NCBI GenBank assembly: GCA_001775395.1
Contig: MEWP01000009.1
Location: 1,239-58,460 of the forward strand
DNA from: a candidate division Zixibacteria bacterium RBG_16_53_22
Lineage (GTDB): Bacteria; Zixibacteria; MSB-5A5; UBA10806
Direction: 5' to 3'
Length of the DNA stretch: 57,222 nt
The position numbers were made by a program, and so were the translations under genes. The notes below the pieces were generated by a model. The model was given only the letters and a program-made list of their open reading frames with translations, made no database searches and was not told where the DNA came from. Shown here in pieces: positions 16,735-52,048 of the stretch; the stretch's first letter is position 1; every line of letters begins with the position of its first letter.

Positions 16735-17427
16735 TTGGGTTGCGATCAGCCTTGCAGCCATATACCATCCGACAGCGAATTAGCGGCGATTTCCCGTAAT
16801 TTCAAAAGGCCGCGCAGAAACGTGCAAGCAGGATTCTGACTGTTGCCTGTAACGGGGCAGAAATCCAGAACTCTTGCCAGGAAAGTGAATATCGGGGCCT
16901 TCGGATCATGAAAATGAGAGCTGCTTCCGGTTAGGAATTCGCAGCAATCGATTGATCTCATCTTCAACAAGTTTACTTTGGGATTATCACAAATTAAGTT
17001 CTTGAAAAATCTATGTTGCGATTTGGAAGAATAATAACGGCTCTGATAAACTGCCCCTCACTCTGAAAATTACATATCAAGAAATAATAATCTCCGATTC
17101 ATCGTGATTCAGGGGTTTGCCTTGTCGCGAGAGCTGGAATGGAATCGAGTTCGAGTCTCCTCAGCCCCATTGGGTCAATCCATTGTAAATCAATATATTA
17201 CGGCGAACTCAAGAGGCTTGAGTCTGGCTTTCATCTTGGGCTTTAGTCGTCATCGGGACTTTAGAATTAACATGCTCCTCAAGTAAAATCCGTTGACAAC
17301 ACGGTTATATCTTGCATAATAGAGTCGCATCTTCGATTCCGCATCTTGATTCAAATGCCAGCATCACTTGGCATAATAGTCCGGCCCGGCCGGATTGGCG
17401 ATAAATCATTTGGCTCGGGAGGAGTAC

Positions 17428-19566
17428 ATGAGATGCGCTTTCTTTTTTCTGATCGCCGTCATTCTTCTATTGATTGGAGTGGTATCTGCCCAGAATGTCG
17501 AATATGTGGCCTCGACCCTTTGGTCCGGCGCTAACGATGTAAAAGTGGTCGGCAATTACGCCTACTGTGCCTTTGTGAATGGCTTGGTTATCATCGATGT
17601 GTCGATTCCGTCATCGCCAACATTTGTCAGCCAATTTTACATTCAAGGAAATGGTCTCGGCATATTTGTCTCCGGCAATTATGCTTATCTGGCCGACGGT
17701 AGCTCTGGGCTGCAGGTGATAAACGTGGCCGACCCCGCCAATCCTGTATACGCGGGAAGTTGCAATACGCCGGGTTGGGCGCTTGACGTTCTTATTTCTA
17801 ATAATTACGCTTATCTGGCGGATAGTGATTCCGGGCTGCAGGTGATAAACGTGGCCGAGCCGACTAATCCTGTACTGACAGGGAGCTGCGATACGCCGGG
17901 AGAGGCCAGGGACGTTTCTATGAGGGGCCATTACATTGTTGTCGCGGATGGAGATTCCGGGCTGGTGGTGATTGACATTGCTGACCCGGCCAATCCGGCA
18001 GTTGCCGGACGTGATACGCTGGGGCCGGCTGAAGGCATTTTCATCAGGGGTCGTTATGCCTATGTGACTGTATGCTACCCAGGCGTTCCTTACCCACCAT
18101 CCCCGGGGTATTCATCTCTGAAAATTATCGACATAATTGATCCGGTTGATCCTGCGCTTGTAGGACAGTATGGCGTAGAATGGCACGATTTTCAGGACGT
18201 TTTTGTTTCAGGCAATTACGCTTATGTGGCTGACGGTCATTATGGTCTCCAAATCATCGACATTAGCGACAGCGCCAACCCTGCCTTAGCAGGAAGTTAT
18301 AGTTCGCTTAATGACGCAGTAAGCGTTTTCGTATCGGCCAGTTTCTCTTTTGTAGCAGATGGTGGCATGGGTCTGATGGTAATAAATGTGGCCGATCCTG
18401 CCAATCCTATTTTGGAGGGGGAATATGATACGCCCGACGTTGTTCATGATGTTTTTGTCACCGGCAATTACGCCTACGTAGCCAATTATTCTTCAGGCCT
18501 CCAAATCGTCGATATCGCTAATCCCGGCAATCCGACCCTGGCAGGTCAGAACCTCGCCCCCGGTTCAGCCTACAGCATTTTCATCGCAGGCAATTACGCA
18601 TACGTGGCTGACTTTTATTTTGGCCTGCAAATCATCAATGTCGTCGATCCAATTAACCCGGCATTATCAGGAAGCCTCGAAACGCCCAGCTATGCCGCGG
18701 ATGTTTTTGTAACCGGCAATTACGCCTATGTGGCTGACGAATATTCCGGCCTGCAGATTATCGACATAACCAATCCGACAGCGCCGGTACTGTCCGGGAC
18801 TTGCCCAATCCCGCCTCGTGCGGTAGATGTATTTGTCGCCGGCAATTATGCATATGTGGCCGACGATTATTCCGGCCTGCAGATCATTGACGTTGCCAAT
18901 CCGACAAATCCCATTATAGCCGGTAGCTTTGGCACCGCCGGCCTGGCATGGGGGGTATTCATCTCCGACAATTACGCCTATGTGGCTGATTTCCCGGGTG
19001 GTTTACTAATTATAGACGTTGCCAATCCTGCCAATCCGGTTTTGGCTGGAAGGTATAATACGCCCGAAGGCCCTATAGGTTTAAACGGTTCTGGCCAGTA
19101 TGTGTTTATGGTCGGTTTTTTCGGCTTGCAGATTATCGATGTTGTTGATCCTGCGAATCCGGTATTGACGGGCAACTTCGAGACGCCCAGCCCCGCTGTA
19201 AACGTATTTGTATCAGGCAATTACATTTATGTAGCCGATAATACCTCTATTTTGATTCTCAGGTGCAACTTAACGAGCGTTGAGGAAGATGACAAGAGAC
19301 CAGAGGAATTATCCCTCTCCCAAAATTACCCCAACCCCTTCAACGCCCAGACAACGATTCAATACTCTCTACCAGAGCAATCAATGGTAACAATCGATAT
19401 CTTCGACCTCCTCGGCCGAAAGATTGAGACGCTGGCGGAGGGAATAAAGCCGACGGGAGATCATCAGGCGATTTGGGATGCAAGTGGGCAGACATCAGGG
19501 ATTTATTTCTACAAAATAAAGGCGGGAGATAAGGTTGAAACGATGAAGATGATGCTGATGAAATAA
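17428..19566 (+). CDS. Secreted LVIVD beta-propeller repeat protein with a FlgD-like C-terminal sorting domain
   Basis: Shine-Dalgarno GGGAGGAG then ATG at 17428 and a signal peptide. Many repeats of NYAYVAD..SGLQIIDVANPANPVLAG. C-terminal LSQNYPNPFNAQTTIQYSLPEQSMVTIDIFDLLGRKIETL...GIYFYKIKAGDKVETMKMMLMK. Confidence 0.85.
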   Translation: MRCAFFFLIAVILLLIGVVSAQNVEYVASTLWSGANDVKVVGNYAYCAFVNGLVIIDVSIPSSPTFVSQFYIQGNGLGIFVSGNYAYLADGSSGLQVINVADPANPVYAGSCNTPGWALDVLISNNYAYLADSDSGLQVINVAEPTNPVLTGSCDTPGEARDVSMRGHYIVVADGDSGLVVIDIADPANPAVAGRDTLGPAEGIFIRGRYAYVTVCYPGVPYPPSPGYSSLKIIDIIDPVDPALVGQYGVEWHDFQDVFVSGNYAYVADGHYGLQIIDISDSANPALAGSYSSLNDAVSVFVSASFSFVADGGMGLMVINVADPANPILEGEYDTPDVVHDVFVTGNYAYVANYSSGLQIVDIANPGNPTLAGQNLAPGSAYSIFIAGNYAYVADFYFGLQIINVVDPINPALSGSLETPSYAADVFVTGNYAYVADEYSGLQIIDITNPTAPVLSGTCPIPPRAVDVFVAGNYAYVADDYSGLQIIDVANPTNPIIAGSFGTAGLAWGVFISDNYAYVADFPGGLLIIDVANPANPVLAGRYNTPEGPIGLNGSGQYVFMVGFFGLQIIDVVDPANPVLTGNFETPSPAVNVFVSGNYIYVADNTSILILRCNLTSVEEDDKRPEELSLSQNYPNPFNAQTTIQYSLPEQSMVTIDIFDLLGRKIETLAEGIKPTGDHQAIWDASGQTSGIYFYKIKAGDKVETMKMMLMK

Positions 19567-28219: not shown

Positions 28220-28378
28220 CGCCCCGGCGGGCCCCGGCCCCCCTTCGGGGGGCAGGAAACTCGCCCGCCAAACGACAGTTGGATTATCGGGCCATGCCGG
28301 GCGCCGACATTTTCGGCACAACTGTGGCCGCTGGCGAGTTTCCCTGGTCCTGCGGACCAGGCGGGGCCCGCCGGGGCG
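28220..28378. repeat. 159-bp structured inverted-repeat element, copy A
   Basis: 17-bp outer arms CGCCCCGGCGGGCCCCG / CGGGGCCCGCCGGGGCG; lateral hairpins GCCCCCC-TTC-GGGGGGC and CTGGTCC-TGC-GGACCAG; inner arms GGAAACTCGCC / GGCGAGTTTCC; central ACAGTTG / CAACTGT. Confidence 0.85.
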
Positions 28379-35726: not shown

Positions 35727-36497
35727 TCATTCCTCCTGGATATCAGGCCGCCGAACAAACATCTCCGGCACACGACTGCAGGCGCCGACCAGGCAGAATG
35801 GATCCTCGATTCTCAATGGTTCCCCGATTGCATAACCCTGGCCATACTTGACACCAATTTGACCGCCATATCCGCGCGCCATCGACTCCAACTGCCAAAT
35901 ATAATCACGATTCTTTTCCGGATTCAAGAACTGAGTGCGATGTGCGGACAAGGCTTTAATCCAAGGCTCGAATTCGTCCGTAATATCGACCACGAATGTG
36001 GGAGCAACCTCCGGTGGCAGGAAAAAATGAAATAAGGCCCCGACCGCATGCGGAGGCTCCTCGAGCGGAAGTTTCTTCAGGGTGGCGTAATTGACTCCGT
36101 TCATGACAATCCGTCCGCATGCGATATGATCCGGGTGTGAGGCCCGCTTGCCATGGCCGCCGGCAAACCACGGCGCCATCACTATTTTCGGGCGATGACG
36201 TCTGATGAACCCGGCCGCCACCAGCCGAGACTCGTAATTGTCCTCGAGGCGACAATCGCCCATATCGAGATGGGCAATGACAGACGCCCCCATTATCTCA
36301 GCCGCCTCCAAGACCTCCTGTCGACGCAGTTCCGGAGTGCCGCCGGTACCCATTTCGCCCTGAGTCAAAATCACCAGCCCGACCCTGTAGCCTCGCTTGC
36401 GAAGCTTGATAATCAGACCGCCGCATCCAACCTCGACATCATCAGGATGCGCCCCGAAAGCCAATAGATCGAAAATCTCGGCGTTGTTTTCTTGCAT
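35727..36497 (-). CDS. bshB1: PIG-L deacetylase, BshB1-like
   Basis: LLAFGAHPDDVEVGCGGLIIKLRKRGYRVGLVILTQGEMGTGGTPELRRQE...HPDHIACGRIV...GYAIGEPLRIEDP. Confidence 0.8.
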   Translation of the reverse strand: MQENNAEIFDLLAFGAHPDDVEVGCGGLIIKLRKRGYRVGLVILTQGEMGTGGTPELRRQEVLEAAEIMGASVIAHLDMGDCRLEDNYESRLVAAGFIRRHRPKIVMAPWFAGGHGKRASHPDHIACGRIVMNGVNYATLKKLPLEEPPHAVGALFHFFLPPEVAPTFVVDITDEFEPWIKALSAHRTQFLNPEKNRDYIWQLESMARGYGGQIGVKYGQGYAIGEPLRIEDPFCLVGACSRVPEMFVRRPDIQEE

Positions 36498-36516
36498 ACG
36501 GTATCACTCCGTCGGT

Positions 36517-36675
36517 TCGGCCGCTCGGGTCCCCTCGGCCATTCGGCCGAGCGCCCGGCCGGCACAAGAGCCGGTTAGATTTCATGCGCGAATGCGGGGC
36601 ATGTGGATAATCCCGGGCAGCGCCCAGGAACGCCGGGCGGCCTGACCCGGAGGGTCAGGGGACCCGAGCGGCCGA
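36517..36675. repeat. 159-bp structured inverted-repeat element, copy B
   Basis: 17-bp outer arms TCGGCCGCTCGGGTCCC / GGGACCCGAGCGGCCGA; lateral hairpins CTCGGCC-ATTC-GGCCGAG and CTGACCC-GGA-GGGTCAG; inner arms CGCCCGGC / GCCGGGCG. Confidence 0.8.
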
Positions 36676-36698
36676 CCTGGAATCGAAAACGGCGCTTC

Positions 36699-37838
36699 TT
36701 ATTTCTCCCGCACATGGTTGAAGACGGCCTGCGCCCCTCTGTAATTCTCTATCTTGAGCATATTATTAAGCCCTTTGGCATAGATGTTATCGCCCTCGCG
36801 CAGAAGTTCTGCAAAATCACCATGGCCGAAATTCAACAGGGCTTTGTAAGCAATCCATTGGGCGAAACCCTCGAGATCCTCCAGCGGGAGATCCTCGGGG
36901 CAATTCTCGGCTTGCCAGGCGTGACCGATTTCGTGAGCCAGGACACTGACATAATCTTTCTCTCTCAGGCCATATAAGGCATAGATATGGAAATCATCCC
37001 CCCTGCGGTAGAAAAGGCCGTTCAGGTCGCCATGGATTCCTTTGGCTTTGCTTTGCAGGAAATCCTTGTCGCGCAGTGAGAAATCGATCTCGCGCTTGAT
37101 CGCCATGTTCATGCTGGAGGTGATAAACTTCATCACCTTTTTTCTGATCGGATCGACCAGGCCGAAGTCGAATAGGGCCACTTTGCGGCATTCCGGGCAG
37201 AGATAGCGGCCGTCGGCAAGCCTGGTGCCGTTTGGCCCGGATGGCGCCGCGCAATTGTCGCAGCGCGGGAAATTATTCACGCAATTTAGGCAATACTTAA
37301 ACGCCTGGTTACCCTCAAAATACGAGTATTCCCCAAGGATGGGATCGCCGCAGGAATGGCAGCTTTCAACCTGTGAGGCGCAATTCATGCAGAGTTTGGT
37401 ATCGTTTATGACGATAAACTTTTCCATCGGAAGGCCGCATCTCTGGCACCGCGGTTTCTCTTTCTCGCAAATCGGGCAGACCTGCAGACCCGGTTCGGGA
37501 TAGCGCATGAAGCTCCCCACCAGGGGCCGCGAGCAGAAGCTGCATCGAGGAAGCTTCGCGTAACACTCGGCGCAGAAAGCGAGTCCTTCTGTTCTTATGG
37601 GGGACCGCGTCATTTTGCCGCATTGGGCGCATATGGCGCCGCTCTTCCAGCAGGATTCACAATAGATGCCGCCGTCGGGGGAAACATAGTAAGCCCCGAT
37701 AATAGAATTGCCGCAACTGCCGCATTTGATATCGGCCGATACTGATGACGCGGCCGCCAGCACGATCAGCGGCATAAGATAAATGGCGAAACGAGCGATT
37801 GAGATCGCCCTATGCGCCAGCGCCGGCCATGTTTTCAT
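36699..37838 (-). CDS. Secreted LIM-like treble-clef protein with HEIGH metallopeptidase motif (DA1-like)
   Basis: Signal peptide; repeated CxxC...CxxC pairs (CGSCGNSI...CESCWKSGAICAQCGK..., CSFCSRPL..., CQRCGLPM...); C-terminal VSVLAHEIGHAWQAENCPEDLPLEDLEGFAQWIAYKAL. Confidence 0.75.
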   Translation of the reverse strand: MKTWPALAHRAISIARFAIYLMPLIVLAAASSVSADIKCGSCGNSIIGAYYVSPDGGIYCESCWKSGAICAQCGKMTRSPIRTEGLAFCAECYAKLPRCSFCSRPLVGSFMRYPEPGLQVCPICEKEKPRCQRCGLPMEKFIVINDTKLCMNCASQVESCHSCGDPILGEYSYFEGNQAFKYCLNCVNNFPRCDNCAAPSGPNGTRLADGRYLCPECRKVALFDFGLVDPIRKKVMKFITSSMNMAIKREIDFSLRDKDFLQSKAKGIHGDLNGLFYRRGDDFHIYALYGLREKDYVSVLAHEIGHAWQAENCPEDLPLEDLEGFAQWIAYKALLNFGHGDFAELLREGDNIYAKGLNNMLKIENYRGAQAVFNHVREK

Positions 37839-38634
37839 TGCTCTTGACATATTCCAGCGATTGCAGCAGGTCCTCCTCGGGAAATATCTCGAGTATAACA
37901 TCCAGGGAGAGCGCCCTGAATACTTGCAAGTATCCCTCGATATTAAGCCGGCCGGAGCCGAGCCTCCGGTGATCCGCGCCTTCTCTAAAATCGTGCAGGT
38001 GGGCCAGCCGGATATATCTCAAGTGATCCTGGAAGAACTTGATTACCTGCTGCCGTCTGGGCTCGGGAAGCTGCTCGGCATGGCCGACATCCCACACAAG
38101 CCCCAAATCCCTTTCGACGGCGAGCCTTCCGACCACCTCCAGGAAGGGGGTTGAAACAGTATGGGTATTCTCGATACAGAGTTTGATCCGGCCGCGGCAT
38201 TTATCGAGAAGGCGGCTGATTGAATTTTCGAAAAGGGAGCTTATTCGTTCGGGATAGCGCTGTTCCATGAAAAAAATCTGTCTGGATGAAAGAGAGTAAA
38301 AACCCAGGCGTCCGGGGTGAAGGATGAAATACTCGCCTCCCAATTCGATCGCCATTTCAATGAATTCGCCCACCCTCTCCAAACCTGCGGCCCGGACCTT
38401 TTCGTGGCGGTTCAGAAGAGGCACATCCGATGGCCCATGGAAACAGAGACCAATGCCGAGGGCTCTAAATTTCCGCTGGATTTCGGCCCGCTTATCTGGG
38501 CCGAATTTTTCCGGGAAATAGCGGGGATTGTCGAAACTAACCTGGACCAGCCCGAAACCGTTCCTTTCGGCGAAATCAACAAGATAGTCGAAATCACCTC
38601 GGCCCTTGACATCAGCGAAACCGAGTCGTCCCAA
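37810..38634 (-). CDS. Sugar phosphate isomerase/epimerase (AP-endonuclease 2-like TIM barrel)
   Basis: EYFILHPGRLG...IKLCIENTHT...LGLVWDVGHAEQL...YIRLAHLHDFREGADHRRLGSGRLN. Confidence 0.85.
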   Translation of the reverse strand: MGRLGFADVKGRGDFDYLVDFAERNGFGLVQVSFDNPRYFPEKFGPDKRAEIQRKFRALGIGLCFHGPSDVPLLNRHEKVRAAGLERVGEFIEMAIELGGEYFILHPGRLGFYSLSSRQIFFMEQRYPERISSLFENSISRLLDKCRGRIKLCIENTHTVSTPFLEVVGRLAVERDLGLVWDVGHAEQLPEPRRQQVIKFFQDHLRYIRLAHLHDFREGADHRRLGSGRLNIEGYLQVFRALSLDVILEIFPEEDLLQSLEYVKSNENMAGAGA

Positions 38635-44104: not shown

Positions 44105-44142
44105 AATGACAGTCCTGAAGCGGCTACTTCAGGACTGTCATT
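44105..44142. terminator. Convergent-gene terminator with 16-bp perfect stem
   Basis: AATGACAGTCCTGAAG-CGGCTA-CTTCAGGACTGTCATT followed by TTTATT on +; on - it is followed by CGCTTTTT. Confidence 0.85.
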
Positions 44143-46037
44143 TTTATTGTCGATGCATCATCGCCGGCGCTAAGCCTGCAATAATAGACCCCCGTGCTCA
44201 ACTTCGCATTACCGGTATCATAAGAGACGAGATGTCGCCCGGCTTCCTGGCGCCCCTCATAGAGAAGATCGGCCCTCTGGCCAAGCAGGTTAAATAATTC
44301 GAGCTTGACGTCGGCCGCTCTTGGCAGGTCATAGGAAATCATGGTCCTGGCGTTGAACGGATTCGGATAATTCGTTAGAAGCAGGTGGTTTTTCGGGATC
44401 ATCGCATCATCATCGCCATCGATCGCGGAGCTTTCGACGGTGCCGCCTGATATTACGAAGAATTTGCCGCCCATATTGTTGAGGAACTGCTGTCCGGCAA
44501 TAATATCAGGCACGCCGTCCCCGTTGACATCGCCGATAGGCCTGACCGTGAATATCTTGGAGTCGGTGTAGCAGGTCCAGATCTCCTGACCGTCGGCGCC
44601 GTTTATCAGCGCAACAGCTCCCGTGAACGCGCCGGCTATGGCCTCGCAGACGCCGTCGCCGGTGACATCGTTAGCCCAATAAACCGCCCAGACATCGTCG
44701 CCCATAGGGTATGTCCAAAGCGTGCTGCCATCATGGCCCGATAAAGCCAGGGCATAATTACCCCAGGAGGCCACGAGGACTTCGGAAAACCAATCTCCAT
44801 TCAGATCGGGGCTAATGACGATTCTCATCACCGGCCCCCCGGCCTGGGCAGTCCATAACGTGTCGCCGACACGGTCCCTGGAATAACCGGAAAGGGCAAA
44901 TACGAGATTTCCGCTGCTCCAGGATCCGGCAATGACATCGCCGTAAGCATCACCGTTGGCATCTGGTATCCCGGCCAACGAGAAAATCGATCCATTGGCG
45001 TCAAAGCTCCATATTAAGCTGGTGTCGAGTTCGACGCCGGAGTAGAGATAAACCTTGTCGTCGGTGTCCCCCGCGCCCAGAACAGCCTCGGGGATATTGT
45101 CATAATTGATATCGCTCACCCTGCTGACTGAATAAACGGCGTCGGCAACCTGATGTCTCCAGATCATGGCGCCGTCGGCTCCATTCAGGAGGATGCCGGC
45201 ATTGGCGTCCGAGCCTGCCCCGGCCAGGACCTCGGGGATAGTGTCACCGTTGATATCGCCCATCGAGGCGACGCTATAGACCCAGCCGCTGGGCAGGTTC
45301 TGATAAGTGTCATATGACCAGATTGTCTGCCCGGAGGCGCCCTCGATGGCGAAAATGGTCCTGCTGCCCCAGGCGGTGCCCAAGATCAGGTCGCGGGTCC
45401 CGTTATGATTCATATCATCTATGGCTATGAGACACTCGTCGCCATAGCCGCCGGAATTGGATGGCCCGCCCAGGGGCCTGGCCGACCAGATGAGCTCGCC
45501 CTCGCCGTTGCCCGAGCCGGAGACGCAGAGAAGATTATCGGTGGTGACACCGGCGTCGAACGATTCGGCAACGACATCCTGAATGCCATCGCCGTTGACA
45601 TCGTCCACAGCCGTGCATGAAACCACGTTTTCCGGCCCCTGATAGCTCCAGATTATCTCCCCCGGCTGGAAGACCAGAATTCCATTGGCCTCTATGGGCA
45701 ACGGGGCCGTGGGCCGGACAGGATCATTGGAATAGAATGAAAACACAGCGTCATATGATCTGATTTCGGCCGGCCTGAAATGGAATCGATACTGACGATG
45801 CTGGCCCGGAGAAATAGTATCGGGGATGGACGGACCAAGAATTGTGAAAACGGTATCTTGAAATAAAACCGTGTCGATAATCAGGGCCTCATCACCGCTG
45901 TTGGATATGTCGAGTTGGCGAACATGGTTTCCACCAACCGAAATGAAGCCGAATTTAAGCGTATCGGCGCCAAAATTAATGACCGGCGCCGCCAGCGCCG
46001 TTGACGCGCATAAGAGGAGACATAGCAATACCCTCAT
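44124..46037 (-). CDS. Secreted FG-GAP/VCBS-like beta-propeller protein with FlgD-like C-terminal domain
   Basis: AGGAGGT Shine-Dalgarno before ATG at 46037; repeated DINGDTIPEVLAGAG/DVNGDGVPDIIAGQ; C-terminal LLTNYPNPFNARTMISYDLPRAADVKLELFNLLGQ. Confidence 0.85.
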   Translation of the reverse strand: MRVLLCLLLCASTALAAPVINFGADTLKFGFISVGGNHVRQLDISNSGDEALIIDTVLFQDTVFTILGPSIPDTISPGQHRQYRFHFRPAEIRSYDAVFSFYSNDPVRPTAPLPIEANGILVFQPGEIIWSYQGPENVVSCTAVDDVNGDGIQDVVAESFDAGVTTDNLLCVSGSGNGEGELIWSARPLGGPSNSGGYGDECLIAIDDMNHNGTRDLILGTAWGSRTIFAIEGASGQTIWSYDTYQNLPSGWVYSVASMGDINGDTIPEVLAGAGSDANAGILLNGADGAMIWRHQVADAVYSVSRVSDINYDNIPEAVLGAGDTDDKVYLYSGVELDTSLIWSFDANGSIFSLAGIPDANGDAYGDVIAGSWSSGNLVFALSGYSRDRVGDTLWTAQAGGPVMRIVISPDLNGDWFSEVLVASWGNYALALSGHDGSTLWTYPMGDDVWAVYWANDVTGDGVCEAIAGAFTGAVALINGADGQEIWTCYTDSKIFTVRPIGDVNGDGVPDIIAGQQFLNNMGGKFFVISGGTVESSAIDGDDDAMIPKNHLLLTNYPNPFNARTMISYDLPRAADVKLELFNLLGQRADLLYEGRQEAGRHLVSYDTGNAKLSTGVYYCRLSAGDDASTIKMTVLK

Positions 46038-46124
46038 AACCGCACCTCCTGTAGAATTACAAATCAAATCGCCTGAGCCAATTCTGGATTCACCAAAGAC
46101 CTCACTCCAAAAAAATGGGCGGCT

Positions 46125-48269
46125 CTACCTCAATAATATCATCTTTCTCGAAAGAATGCTGCTTCCCACTCTCAGCCTATAGAAATAAATTCCACTGCTT
46201 ACCGAATTTCCTTTAGAGTCCCTCGAATCCCAGATGACTCTTTGTGTCCCGGAATCGTGCGCGCCGATTAACTGGTATTCCTTCACAACTCTTCCTACGA
46301 TATCGAAAATCGAGAGGTTTCCCCTGATTCCCGACGGCAATTCCACCGTAATGGCCGTCCTGGCATTAAACGGATTGGGGTAATTCTGAGCCAGGCCGAC
46401 AGACCCGGGAATCGGGCTTTCACTGGCTCCGGTCAGGTGATGGAAAATAAACGACCATACCGGAGAATACGATCCCCATCCATGCGAATTTTCGGCTTTC
46501 ACCCGCCAACAGAAGAAGGTATCGACCTGTGGCGCTTGCAAGACCATAACCGTATCGGTCAGGAGCGAATCGATATAAAAAGGAGTTATCAGGGCGGTAT
46601 CGGGATAGACCTCGAGGAGATATCTTTGGGCCGACGGGGCTTGATGCCAGGCAAATGTCATCACGGTGTCGGTCAGGACCGTATCGCGCGGCGGGAAGAA
46701 GGGAACCGGGGCCGGCGGGGCGGTATAGAAAACGAATGACGCGATTGACGAATATGGGCCCCATCCATATTGGTTGCCGCCCTTGACTCTCCAGAAGACC
46801 AGCGAATCGATCGGCTGAAAAACCGGCGTCAAGCTGGAATCGGCCACGAGCGAATCGACGAAAAGCGGCACGGCCAACAGCGAATCGGCGTAAATCTCAA
46901 GCAGGTAACTTTGGGCGAATTGCGACCTGTGCCAGACGAAAGTTATTGTGGTATCGACCAGAATAGTATCCTGCGGCGGGAATATCAGGACCGGGGCGGG
47001 CGGCCGCGGATCAGTCGGCGGCAGAAGCTTGTCGACCACGACCGGCCTGTTGCTGGGGACAACGACGTTATTGACGGTCCTTGTCGAATATCCGGCTTTC
47101 AGGAATCTGAGCGTATAGGTCCCAGGATCCAGGAGGCGTCTGTAGCGGCCGCTATCGGGCCGGGAGAGACGCGGCCGGATATCGGCATTGATACGCTCGA
47201 CAACCTGCACCTCGGCCTCGATCGGTTCGAGGGTAACGGAATCGCGGATTATCCCGGTGATCGCCGACCCGAGGGCGCGGCCAAGGAGGTAATATTGAGA
47301 AGGCAGGTGGCGGTTGCAGATGTCGTCCACCAGAGTCGAATCCTGAATTGTCGTATCCGAAATTTCGACTGAAAAGGCCACCGTGCCAAAATTGCCATAG
47401 AAATAGGTTTTGAAATCGCCCTTGTCGACCAGGGCCCGCCTAGCCTCGTAGGTGGAATCTCCGGCGTCATCGACTATGCGGCTGCAGTATTGCCGGCACA
47501 GGGACAGCATCATGGTTTCATCGGGGCTGGCGCCATGCCCACCATCGGTTGACCACCACCACCAGGGGTAATAAGCGACCTCGGATCTTCCATAGGTTGG
47601 GGAATGATAATCGAGTCCTACAACGGGGCGGTAGCGCCAGGCGAAGGCGGCCATGGCGATATTCTCAGTTTGAGTGAACGGGGCCGTGCCTTTATACTGC
47701 AGCGATTCCGGAGTAGTGGCATCAAGCCCCTGGTCGATATTGAAGCCGAGATCATAGTTGCGGTTGTTGTCAACACCGTCGTGAAAATCGAAAACCCCGT
47801 TGGAGTCGTTGTCGCATTTATTCTTGCGCCAGTCGGTATCGCCCTCCTCGACCACTATGTGACCCTCGGGGTTGATATACGGCACGCAGAATATTTCGAG
47901 CTCATTGATATATCTTAAAGCAACCGAGTCGCCGAGCGCATAGCGGGCCATGATATCCTGAATGAACCACATGACAACCTCGACACCCAGCACCTCATCG
48001 GCATGGACTCCGCCGCAGTAGAAGACCGCCGGTTCATCCTCTTCCATCGAGACATTGTCGGAGATCTTGAATCTGAGCATCGGGATGTTGTCCCTGGTCG
48101 AATACCCCATGGTGTCGAGCCTGCAGACCTGCGGATAGGCGGCCTCGAGATCGGCGAGAGTCTGCAACGCCTGGGAATAGCGCGTGTACCGGGAAGGCAA
48201 TTGAGCGTTGACTCCGGCGAATGCGATCAGCAATATCAATGATGTTAAAACGAATCTGCGAACCGGCAT
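46125..48269 (-). CDS. Secreted M14-family zinc carboxypeptidase with two FN3-like repeats and FlgD-like C-terminal domain
   Basis: GGVHADEVLGVEVVMWFIQDI (HxxE zinc ligands), VPYINPEGHIVVEEGDTDWRKNK, VGLDYHSPTYGRSE; C-terminal LAQNYPNPFNARTAITVELPSG. Confidence 0.88.
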   Translation of the reverse strand: MPVRRFVLTSLILLIAFAGVNAQLPSRYTRYSQALQTLADLEAAYPQVCRLDTMGYSTRDNIPMLRFKISDNVSMEEDEPAVFYCGGVHADEVLGVEVVMWFIQDIMARYALGDSVALRYINELEIFCVPYINPEGHIVVEEGDTDWRKNKCDNDSNGVFDFHDGVDNNRNYDLGFNIDQGLDATTPESLQYKGTAPFTQTENIAMAAFAWRYRPVVGLDYHSPTYGRSEVAYYPWWWWSTDGGHGASPDETMMLSLCRQYCSRIVDDAGDSTYEARRALVDKGDFKTYFYGNFGTVAFSVEISDTTIQDSTLVDDICNRHLPSQYYLLGRALGSAITGIIRDSVTLEPIEAEVQVVERINADIRPRLSRPDSGRYRRLLDPGTYTLRFLKAGYSTRTVNNVVVPSNRPVVVDKLLPPTDPRPPAPVLIFPPQDTILVDTTITFVWHRSQFAQSYLLEIYADSLLAVPLFVDSLVADSSLTPVFQPIDSLVFWRVKGGNQYGWGPYSSIASFVFYTAPPAPVPFFPPRDTVLTDTVMTFAWHQAPSAQRYLLEVYPDTALITPFYIDSLLTDTVMVLQAPQVDTFFCWRVKAENSHGWGSYSPVWSFIFHHLTGASESPIPGSVGLAQNYPNPFNARTAITVELPSGIRGNLSIFDIVGRVVKEYQLIGAHDSGTQRVIWDSRDSKGNSVSSGIYFYRLRVGSSILSRKMILLR

Positions 48270-48376: not shown

Positions 48377-51300
48377 TCATTTCAGGAGGGTCATCCTCTT
48401 CGTTATAACGCCATCGAACGTGGCCAGGCGGTAGAAGTAAATGCCGGACGAAGCATCGCCGGCATTCCAGAGAATCAGATGGCTGCCGGCATCGAATTCA
48501 CGATCAGCCAGAGTCGCAATTCTTTGCCCGAGGACATTGAAGATATCGATCGTCAAGCGCTGCCGGGATGGGAGGTTAAACTCGATCTGAGTCGCGGCGT
48601 TGAATGGGTTGGGGTAATTCTGGCCAACAGCGAATTTCCCGGGGACCATCTCCCGATCATCAGCACCGACCATGTAGGGCGAGCCGGTCGTGAACTTGAC
48701 AGCCCGGCCACTGGAAATCTGCGCGGCCCCGGCCGGGCGGGCGCCGTTGAAGTTGATACATATGCCATCGGTGCGGTCGGGCGAACAGATGCCGGCAGAC
48801 ATTGTGGATACGGATTGAGCGGTCTGGTATTGGAAAATGATTTCATTGTCGCCGGATAGGGACGGCCAAAATGCGTTGTCCAGAATTATTATTTCGAAAG
48901 TCTGGGTGCGGCCGTTGTCGCTGTCGTAGGCGTTTCTCCAGCCGATTATAAACCGACCACCGGACTCGTCATGATGGTAATAGACGCGCATCGGCGTCTG
49001 CACGAAATCATCCCAGAAAGGAGCGATCATGGCCATGGCGTTCTGGGGCGCCGGTATGGGACAATTATAAAAATTCGGCCACCAGGTTCGGCCGAACGCC
49101 GCAAAACCGTTATCGCAGATGGTTATCTCATCGAAAACCTGACCATAGTATAGCGCCGGGAACGGCAGCTCGATGGTCGCGACGTCATCATCAGTGAGTG
49201 AAACATAAGTCCAGGCTGTATTAATATCGATCCAGCTGTAATCGGGATGATATAAGTATGTGGTGTCAGTGTTATCGAAACAGTAGTAGCCGTAATTATC
49301 AGGGCCGACAGGGTCCGATTGCTGCACCTGCCCCACCTGCACGCTGAAAGAGGAAGTGACGACATGAGGTCCGAGACCGGTGTAGATCATGGTGAAATTA
49401 ATGATATGGCCGATGTAAATATCGGAATCGACAAAGACTGCGAAGTGGTCATCGACGTTGCTGACGGTATCGCCCGGCAAGCAGTCGCCAATAACCGCCA
49501 TCGAATCGATTATTTGGACCTGGTCATCGGAGGTCCGTAGAATGGCGCTGGCGCTCAAAACAGGGTCTTCGCCAACATTAATGGCCTGCACAATTATCTC
49601 GGCCAATTCCCCGGGGTCGAGTCGCCCGTTCAATCCATCTACAATCATTACCGTGTCGGATATGATATTGCCGGCGGCAACCGAAAGGTTAACGACGTTG
49701 TGCCAGGTATGGCCGCCAACATCGGTGACATCAATTATCATCCTGGCGGTGGCGCCATCGGGCAGTTCCGATGCGGCGCTGATAAGAAATGGCTGGTCGG
49801 GTGACGACGATTCGCCGGGCGCGATGTTGCCATAGTTCGCTGTTGATCGGGAGATGGTGATGCCGGGCATCTGGCAAGAGATATTGGCTGTTACGTCGTA
49901 GGCGGTATCGGTGGCGCCGTAATTTATCAATTGGACCGGCAACTCGACCGTCTCCGAGGGGTTGAGAATGCCATCGCCATCCCCCTGCGACTCTCCGCTG
50001 GAGTCATCGTCAACGGTGTGGGAGGCGTAGCCCACAATGGCCCCGCTGGTATGGTAATAAAGGCTGTCCTCGTATGGTATGTAGTTTCTTGCTGTCGCGG
50101 TGACTTTCATATATCCCGGGGTAAGTGGCGAGGCCATGAATTCGAAATTACCGGCGTTATTGGTGAATCCGCTGGCGAACACCTCGGCGCCTTTCCAGAT
50201 ACAGACCGCGGCCCCGTCAATTGCCGTTCCCAGCGTGTCCTGAATATGAATATCGACCCGGTTCTGGCCGAATGCGATTGAATCGGGATGCCCAACCTGC
50301 ATCGGGCGCGGGACATCGGTCCAGCAGTTGATCTCGGGGTCGCCAAGGATGTTATAACTGTTGAAATAGAGTTCCACTTCGCCATTGGGATTGCGATTGG
50401 TGGGGAAGGCGTCATAGAGCACCATCTTCCCCATGAGCTGGGCCTGGGCCAGGGTTGTAACGTCCTCGTAAAACAGGCCCCAATAAGTTCCTATATCCAG
50501 GGTGTTGGTCCAACGCGTATGGGCGTAGTGGTTGCTGTTGCCGATAAAACCAGCCCCTCCCTTGTTGTTGGACCTGATCCAGGTCTCCCCGAAACAGACG
50601 TCGTAAAACTGGTCGTTGTAATCTCCGGTGCCACACACCATGGAGGTCATGATGGGATACTTGTTGACGTTGGTGAGGGCGCTGATGTTCCAACTCGTGT
50701 AATCCGGCGGGGTCCAGCCATCGGCCGTTCCGTATCCTCGATAATTCACGAATGCGACCCCGGCATTTATGGCGGCGCTGATCAAGGAAGGTAGATTCCA
50801 GCCCCCATTTTCGGCGAAAAATGTATCGACATGAGTGAATCCACGGCTCATCATGGCCTCGCGGCACCAGAGCTTGGTGAAGCGCGGGCTGGTGAACGAG
50901 AATCCATCGCTTCCGGCTACAACCACGCCGCGGTGATACCAGCTGGTATCGGTCATGAATGGGGTGCGTTCATACCTGAAAAGCTTATTAAGATAGTAAC
51001 CTATTTCGGCCTGATTATCGAACGAGATGCGGCCGATCAGGACCTCGGGGAAATAGTCATTGCCGTGGAGGAAAGTGTAATAATTGTCGGATTCAATGTC
51101 GCCCAGGTCGAGCGGATTATCGTACTCCCTGGTCGCGATGCCGGGTCCGCTCGGCATCTCCACGTCGCCCATGATAACGATATAATCCGGCTTGTTCTGG
51201 CAGGAGTCGAATCGCGCCAGGATATAATTTCTGATATTGACATAGGTGTTGGAACCCAATTGACTCTGCAGAATCGGCACGACATCGAAGCCTTTAGCCT

Positions 51301-52048
51301 TCTTCCAGACAATGAACGGCTGCACTTGCGAGGCGAAGGCGTCCGGGTAAAGCACCCAGTAGGCCCCGCGTGTCACCCGAACGGGATCGAAGACGGCCGG
51401 ATTATCGACAAATGAGCGGTATATCGGGGCGAAGGCCTCGGAAATATTATCGCCGTACCGCGTGATTTGAGAGCCGGCATGCGAGACCTCGATCTCCAAA
51501 TCGGTAAAAACCCGAAGTGATCCATTGTCGGGATCGTATTGAACAGGCGATACGGTGAGCGCATACAGGCGCAGGTCGCGCATGACCCCGGCAATTTCGC
51601 CCGTAACCAGTGGCCGTTCAACCTGCGAAAATGGGGTCTCCGCGCCAGCCAGAAAGGACTGCATGTCTTCTTCCGATGCGGAAGCCAGTGAGATATCGGG
51701 TATATCGGTGTATTCCTGGCGGACGATCTTAAATGATGGATCGGCATCGAACGGCACGGCCAAGAGGCGGGTGAGAGTGGGAATAACCGTATTCTCGGGG
51801 CCAAGGTATGCGCCCCGGCTTTGTCCGAAAGCCTCTGGAAGATAAGCAGTAATTGCCTGTCGACCATCGGGCAAAGTCACAGGATCGTGATCCAGGGATG
51901 AAATATGGATATTAATGATAGTGCGGTCGGCGGCCTGAGTTAATGCGGCCACGTCGGAGGGGGTGTTGTCGAATTCAAGCGAGTTGCCATGGGCGCCGAT
52001 CGCCAAAGGCAATGCCAATATTATCAGGGCTGTCAACCCGCGCTGCAT
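48377..52048 (-). CDS. Secreted C25 (gingipain-like) peptidase with FlgD-like C-terminal domain
   Basis: 1223 aa; GAYWVLYPDAFASQVQPFIVWKKAKGFDVVPILQSQLG...IKNYI-like INIRNYILARFDSCQNKPDYIVIMGDVEMPSG...SMVCGTGDYND; C-terminal VGQNYPNPFNAATQIEFNLPSRQRLTIDIFNVLGQRIATL. Confidence 0.8.
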   Translation of the reverse strand: MQRGLTALIILALPLAIGAHGNSLEFDNTPSDVAALTQAADRTIINIHISSLDHDPVTLPDGRQAITAYLPEAFGQSRGAYLGPENTVIPTLTRLLAVPFDADPSFKIVRQEYTDIPDISLASASEEDMQSFLAGAETPFSQVERPLVTGEIAGVMRDLRLYALTVSPVQYDPDNGSLRVFTDLEIEVSHAGSQITRYGDNISEAFAPIYRSFVDNPAVFDPVRVTRGAYWVLYPDAFASQVQPFIVWKKAKGFDVVPILQSQLGSNTYVNIRNYILARFDSCQNKPDYIVIMGDVEMPSGPGIATREYDNPLDLGDIESDNYYTFLHGNDYFPEVLIGRISFDNQAEIGYYLNKLFRYERTPFMTDTSWYHRGVVVAGSDGFSFTSPRFTKLWCREAMMSRGFTHVDTFFAENGGWNLPSLISAAINAGVAFVNYRGYGTADGWTPPDYTSWNISALTNVNKYPIMTSMVCGTGDYNDQFYDVCFGETWIRSNNKGGAGFIGNSNHYAHTRWTNTLDIGTYWGLFYEDVTTLAQAQLMGKMVLYDAFPTNRNPNGEVELYFNSYNILGDPEINCWTDVPRPMQVGHPDSIAFGQNRVDIHIQDTLGTAIDGAAVCIWKGAEVFASGFTNNAGNFEFMASPLTPGYMKVTATARNYIPYEDSLYYHTSGAIVGYASHTVDDDSSGESQGDGDGILNPSETVELPVQLINYGATDTAYDVTANISCQMPGITISRSTANYGNIAPGESSSPDQPFLISAASELPDGATARMIIDVTDVGGHTWHNVVNLSVAAGNIISDTVMIVDGLNGRLDPGELAEIIVQAINVGEDPVLSASAILRTSDDQVQIIDSMAVIGDCLPGDTVSNVDDHFAVFVDSDIYIGHIINFTMIYTGLGPHVVTSSFSVQVGQVQQSDPVGPDNYGYYCFDNTDTTYLYHPDYSWIDINTAWTYVSLTDDDVATIELPFPALYYGQVFDEITICDNGFAAFGRTWWPNFYNCPIPAPQNAMAMIAPFWDDFVQTPMRVYYHHDESGGRFIIGWRNAYDSDNGRTQTFEIIILDNAFWPSLSGDNEIIFQYQTAQSVSTMSAGICSPDRTDGICINFNGARPAGAAQISSGRAVKFTTGSPYMVGADDREMVPGKFAVGQNYPNPFNAATQIEFNLPSRQRLTIDIFNVLGQRIATLADREFDAGSHLILWNAGDASSGIYFYRLATFDGVITKRMTLLK

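Follow-up and report, generated by a model that had tools for sequence, protein, structure and literature searches.

Two elements of one design

Between two co-directional genes in the window (the whole 57,222-nt stretch of Zixibacteria DNA analysed here) lies a 159-bp palindromic structure, copy B, which raises the questions of whether it is a solitary fold or a member of a family, and of what kind of agent would place it there. The most probable answer, put here at roughly two in three, is that copy B and a second element of the window, copy A, are members of a REPIN/RAYT-type family of dispersed, non-autonomous mobile elements. The features concerned are as follows.

35727..36497, minus strand: neighbouring gene, PIG-L family deacetylase (Pfam PF02585)
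36517..36675, no strand: copy B, whole element (159 bp), 23 bp past the stop of one gene and 19 bp ahead of the start of the next
36517..36533, plus strand: left outer arm TCGGCCGCTCGGGTCCC, perfect inverted repeat
36534..36551, plus strand: lateral hairpin 1, CTCGGCC-ATTC-GGCCGAG, from the fold
36552..36559, plus strand: left inner arm CGCCCGGC, from the fold
36560..36631, no strand: spacer, unlike those of other copies in sequence, from the fold and k-mer comparison
36632..36639, minus strand: right inner arm GCCGGGCG, from the fold
36642..36658, minus strand: lateral hairpin 2, CTGACCC-GGA-GGGTCAG, from the fold
36659..36675, minus strand: right outer arm GGGACCCGAGCGGCCGA, perfect inverted repeat
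36699..37901, minus strand: neighbouring gene, zinc-ribbon-like protein (Pfam PF18912, score below its cut-off)
28220..28378, no strand: copy A, whole element (159 bp), from the inverted repeat and the fold
28220-28236 and 28362-28378: outer arms of copy A
28237-28253 and 28344-28360: lateral hairpins of copy A
28255-28265 and 28333-28343: inner arms of copy A, GGAAACTCGCC

Both copies are built from outer arms, a pair of lateral hairpins, inner arms and a spacer of about 70 nt, and no other perfect inverted repeat with flush hairpins in the window is as long. In copy B, the outer arms measure 17 bp, or 19 bp with CT/AG included, one hairpin has 7 bp and a 4-nt loop and the other 7-8 bp and a 3-nt loop, and the inner arms measure 8 bp. 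The position, length, arms and hairpins given for copy B by the first-pass annotation were all confirmed. Its statement that nearly every stem pair differs between the two copies holds for the hairpins and inner arms but not for the outer arms, which agree at 12 of 16 positions after a 1-nt shift, and the equal length to which it drew attention is real but partly a coincidence, as copies span 124-181 bp. Elsewhere in the window, a perfect 16-bp hairpin with a 6-nt loop (44105-44142) adjoins the end of an ORF and is probably a terminator.

A dispersed family in one genome

A single Zixibacteria genome contains at least about two dozen copies of the element, copy B among them. About 19% of this genome was read base by base, in stretches, while whole-genome counts come from a pattern search. 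Eighteen copies of the family (family 1), comprising A, B and 16 others, were gathered from 727 kb; since the second set of stretches was picked partly for its hits, copy density is not to be read from it. A structural descriptor, which requires a perfect inverted repeat and a hairpin lying flush inside each arm, detected four more full-size copies on 324 kb of other contigs, together with a smaller relative from a different sequence family. Across the 727 kb it matched 17 times, compared with no match after that sequence was shuffled once and a single match in 5.8 Mb of further first-order shuffled sequence. Sets of two to six copies aligned poorly with MAFFT, and a covariance model derived solely from copy A recovered copies in the stretches read as well as new sites on many other contigs, so that the covariance search suggested earlier did not stop at A and B. 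In contrast, blastn with copy B returned only itself, both in its own genome and in 58 others, a discrepancy that shows how families of this kind escape repeat finders that rely on sequence.

An independent route to the family is provided by the short motif GAAAC[C/T]C, which opens the inner arm in most copies. The pattern GAAACYCN{58,88}GRGTTTC, which specifies only the two inner 7-mers and a gap of 58-88, matched 22 times genome-wide versus once with a reversed control. Among the matches examined in this genome, both flush hairpins were present in 15 of 15 and outer arms at least 83% matched in 13 of 15, neither feature having been searched for, whereas none of 20 chance matches from other genomes carried such hairpins and outer arms. 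All 28 GAAAC half-ends with adjacent family-like hairpins in the 727 kb sit in paired elements, with no solitary half. Halves of different copies are clearly homologous in some cases (the best score is 38, and the null does not exceed 21), an example being the hairpins CCTCGGTC/GACCGAGG and CCTCGGCC/GGCCGAGG, between which a C-G pair is exchanged for T-A. The shared GAAACYC motif and the homologous halves thus point to common descent, and no near-identical pair of whole copies was present among those found. The earlier proposal of a structured, dispersed, REP/MITE-like family with covarying arms is therefore supported.

Paired variation of the arms

Within the 18 copies, partner arms match at 0.957 (outer) and 0.929 (inner), compared with 0.68 and 0.67 for permuted partners, whose maxima in 20,000 permutations were 0.79 and 0.80, respectively. 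The outer-arm value is circular for copies found by the descriptor but not in the pattern-found set, where outer arms match at 0.911 within copies versus 0.72 after permutation (maximum 0.844 of 20,000). In the same set, the inner arm just past the motif matches at 0.83 versus 0.42, a value reached by none of 20,000 permutations. Between copies, arm identity is only about 0.66. The two lateral hairpins of one copy are unlike each other, with 99.4% of permutations scoring at least as high as the real arrangement (pattern-found set), and the correlation tracks folded pairing exactly. The letters vary widely while the four-armed shape persists, which suggests preservation of the shape itself.

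Nearly perfect arms in copies that differ from one another could also be produced by a mutational process, such as template switching or gene conversion between halves, acting without selection or mobility. However, each hairpin sits between an outer and an inner arm, and since the hairpins are unmatched, the matched arms cannot be put down to copying between the halves; conversion would have equalised the hairpins, which are in fact less alike than random ones. Whole-half gene conversion is accordingly ruled out, the data fit only a correction that acts on the folded form, and the evidence of common descent also speaks against a purely mutational origin, which is very improbable. A further reading, of a mobile or host-maintained DNA element that would be recognised by its four-way shape rather than its sequence, with arms and hairpins drifting in compensating pairs and only the short inner motif and a fixed spacing being held, is possible and is offered tentatively.

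Spacing, spacer and loops

The quantity that remains constant across copies of different length is the distance from inner arm to inner arm, which is 84-87 bp in all 15 pattern matches (L157-L171) where 72-102 was permitted. In two copies, N (L092:10276) and Q (L096:254), this distance is 53 and 57 bp, about 31 bp less, or roughly three helical turns. Spacers are mostly 59-69 nt when fixed inner-arm lengths are trimmed, and two are about 30 nt shorter. No k-mer shared among the spacers of the 18 copies is significant after multiple-test correction; the best word, GATAA/TTATC, occurs in 10 of 18 copies versus 3 expected (p = 0.001, 512 words tested). The conserved tip sequence proposed by the first-pass annotation does not survive this comparison, as GGATTATC...CATGCC is present but its other two genomic matches fall outside such elements, and the tip motif is most simply explained as chance plus a locally common word. 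A distinction between 3-nt and 4-nt loops as a marker of left and right ends was also rejected, with 10 of 18 copies mixed, about the chance level.

The nearly fixed distance, the loss of approximately three turns in two copies, and the age and divergence of the copies would also suit a domesticated, BIME-like binding site for a protein of the nucleoid-protein, gyrase or IHF type, serving chromosome organisation and now immobile. The spacer nevertheless offers no conserved sequence that could serve as such a site and the family is not conserved in relatives, which renders this explanation improbable.

Genomic placement and relatives

According to crude, heuristic ORF calls, nearly all copies are intergenic and about 10 of 18 lie within 33 nt past a stop codon. 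Their gene settings are tandem, convergent and, for copy A, divergent, and both A and B lie at most 20 nt from start codons. In G001, G003 and G004 (a genome of the same genus and two of the same family), the two genes that flank copy B are neighbours with no element between them, and the empty site cannot be aligned at single-base precision. The family is lineage-restricted, being essentially absent among 133 other genomes of the phylum. The inner 7-mer pattern in these genomes mostly stays near its own control, the exception being G005 (8 versus 0), and the copy-A covariance model gave no match in 58 relatives under stricter filters. By eye, no direct repeat is visible in the flanks of the copies, so that the search for a target duplication, proposed as a check on mobility, yielded nothing. 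The window also contains four large ORFs (17395-19566, 44124-46067, 46125-48269 and 48377-52048) that end in an NYPNPFN-type C-terminal sorting motif.

These placements bear on a possible role as a structured RNA in mRNA 3' ends or leaders, where it would act as a stabiliser, a processing site or an attenuator and would owe its spread to that function. The predicted fold is very stable, with RNA folding z-scores of -7.2 (plus strand) and -7.8 (minus strand) for copy B and of -8.9 and -7.8 for the two strands of copy A, none of which is equalled by a shuffle, and the proximity to stop codons and, for A and B, to start codons would be in keeping with such a role. However, the contexts are varied, one gene pair being divergent; no Rfam match reaches the gathering score for the window at the site, and none appears at E≤1 for 36400-36800; and no terminator-like site is found at copy B. 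Arm mismatches number 22 in 430 pairs, 10 of the G-T/A-C type and 12 of other types, with no orientation to the transcribed strand and no marked wobble excess, and the element is missing from the orthologous locus. The first-pass alternatives of a structured mobile family or an RNA family can thus be separated to some extent, the mobile-like family standing while the RNA alternative is weakened by the varied contexts, the absence of an Rfam match and the lack of an excess of G-U-type mismatches, and a cis-regulatory RNA is unlikely. The element is probably a small piece of mobile DNA, as would be suggested by its scattered copies, its restriction to one lineage and its likeness to RAYT units.

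RAYT genes and related mobile units

The host genome contains 10 matches to PF01797 (Y1-transposase), and of five tested against NCBIfam NF047646, three score above its cut-off (L064, L067 and L068). Long inverted repeats frame the gene at six of the 10 PF01797 loci (L061, L064, L066-L069), with clearly nested outer and inner repeats of 16+15 bp at L066, 18+13 bp at L068 and 16+14 bp at L069, separated by an unmatched hairpin stretch. Such nested loci reproduce the family 1 layout with a transposase gene where the spacer would be. The frames are similar but other repeats, and no RAYT gene with family 1 ends is present at the 10 PF01797 loci of this 96%-complete assembly.

REPINs have been described as doublets that act as units, in which spacer length and the capacity to form hairpins are critical and compensatory changes occur (Bertels and Rainey 2011; PMC3116915). 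Family 1 shares with them the inverted doublet unit, a variable spacer of restricted length, extragenic location, a predicted single-stranded DNA hairpin, compensatory changes and a RAYT in the genome (PMC3116915), and every copy presents two inverted REP-like ends with a spacer as a unit. In contrast to REPINs, which have highly conserved 16-mers and leave singlets, family 1 consists of strongly diverged copies, only some halves being clearly alike; its halves never stand alone in the 727 kb, and its ends were found at no RAYT. Neither a GTAG nor a CGTC tag occurs in the ends or flanks of the 18 copies. The outer and inner arms of one half show no complementarity above chance (permutation p = 0.46), so the only palindromic part of a half is the lateral hairpin; a reading of the halves as imperfect REP palindromes, which seemed reasonable on inspection of a few copies, was rejected by permutation. 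Although the element works like a REPIN, it is not classed as one, being untagged, without a RAYT bearing its ends, composed of halves that are not self-complementary and diverged among copies.

Other known systems resemble family 1 in part. Di Nocera et al. (2013; PMC3733652) reported RAYT genes between long TIRs, TIR families, and REPs downstream of genes. These TIRtrons/TIRYT are like the situation here in having Y1 transposase genes within long inverted repeats unrelated to GTAG REPs, and moderately abundant TIR families in dimers downstream of genes (PMC3733652); unlike them and GTAG- or CGTC-tagged REPs, family 1 has its ends at no transposase gene, carries no tag, and displays a consistent four-arm architecture with covarying arms. 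Bacterial MITEs of the NEMIS, RUP and ERIC type are comparable in size, terminal inverted repeats and lack of coding capacity, whereas family 1 shows no target duplication, no matching DDE-type insertion sequence was identified, and its hairpins are flush with both arms. Integron attC sites are read by shape, as family 1 might be, but family 1 is of different design. A further parallel, seven near-identical GTAG-type doublets in G005, shares nested arms, a GAAACCC inner arm, an inner spacing of 77-79 bp and a similar total size, but these doublets are GTAG-tagged, with self-complementary halves and one weak lateral hairpin. G005 also carries RAYT-like genes inside long, often nested inverted repeats (L174, L175, L176 and L179).

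The link of family 1 to the REPIN/RAYT type rests on the similar nested repeats around most host RAYT genes, and since neither a GTAG tag nor a RAYT with family 1 ends is present, family 1 is only a candidate member. The simplest reading is that of an old, diverged element of the RAYT world whose folded form has been maintained. The unit, an outer arm, small hairpin and inner arm followed by a spacer and the mirror image, would fold as a single strand into a four-way cloverleaf; an IS200/IS605-like Y1 (RAYT) transposase, the host's or one since lost, might recognise the hairpin ends in single-stranded DNA and insert copies between genes, often directly past stop codons. The arms would stay complementary because the folded form is recognised or templates repair, and the letters would consequently drift in pairs. 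If the fold is indeed recognised, dozens of natural paired-change variants in one genome would be available to test the reading of hairpins by Y1/RAYT-type transposases or host proteins. RAYT/REPIN-type biology is here extended to Zixibacteria, an uncultured phylum.

Several other repeats were observed. A second family in the same genome has the same four-arm layout (L045:11452-11540, L091:10106-10227, L097:35-150 and L099:15196-15321), with a conserved outer arm GGGTGGCATGCTT and self-complementary halves (AAGCATGC). A CGTCATTGCGAG-type repeat, found at L099:4568-4682 and at L112:3365-3494 (relative G003), folds as outer arm, hairpin, inner arm and hairpin. Finally, L048:4930-5031 contains a GTAG-tagged inverted REP pair (BIME-like) with the tips TCC-ATTT-GGA and CCC-GAA-GGG.
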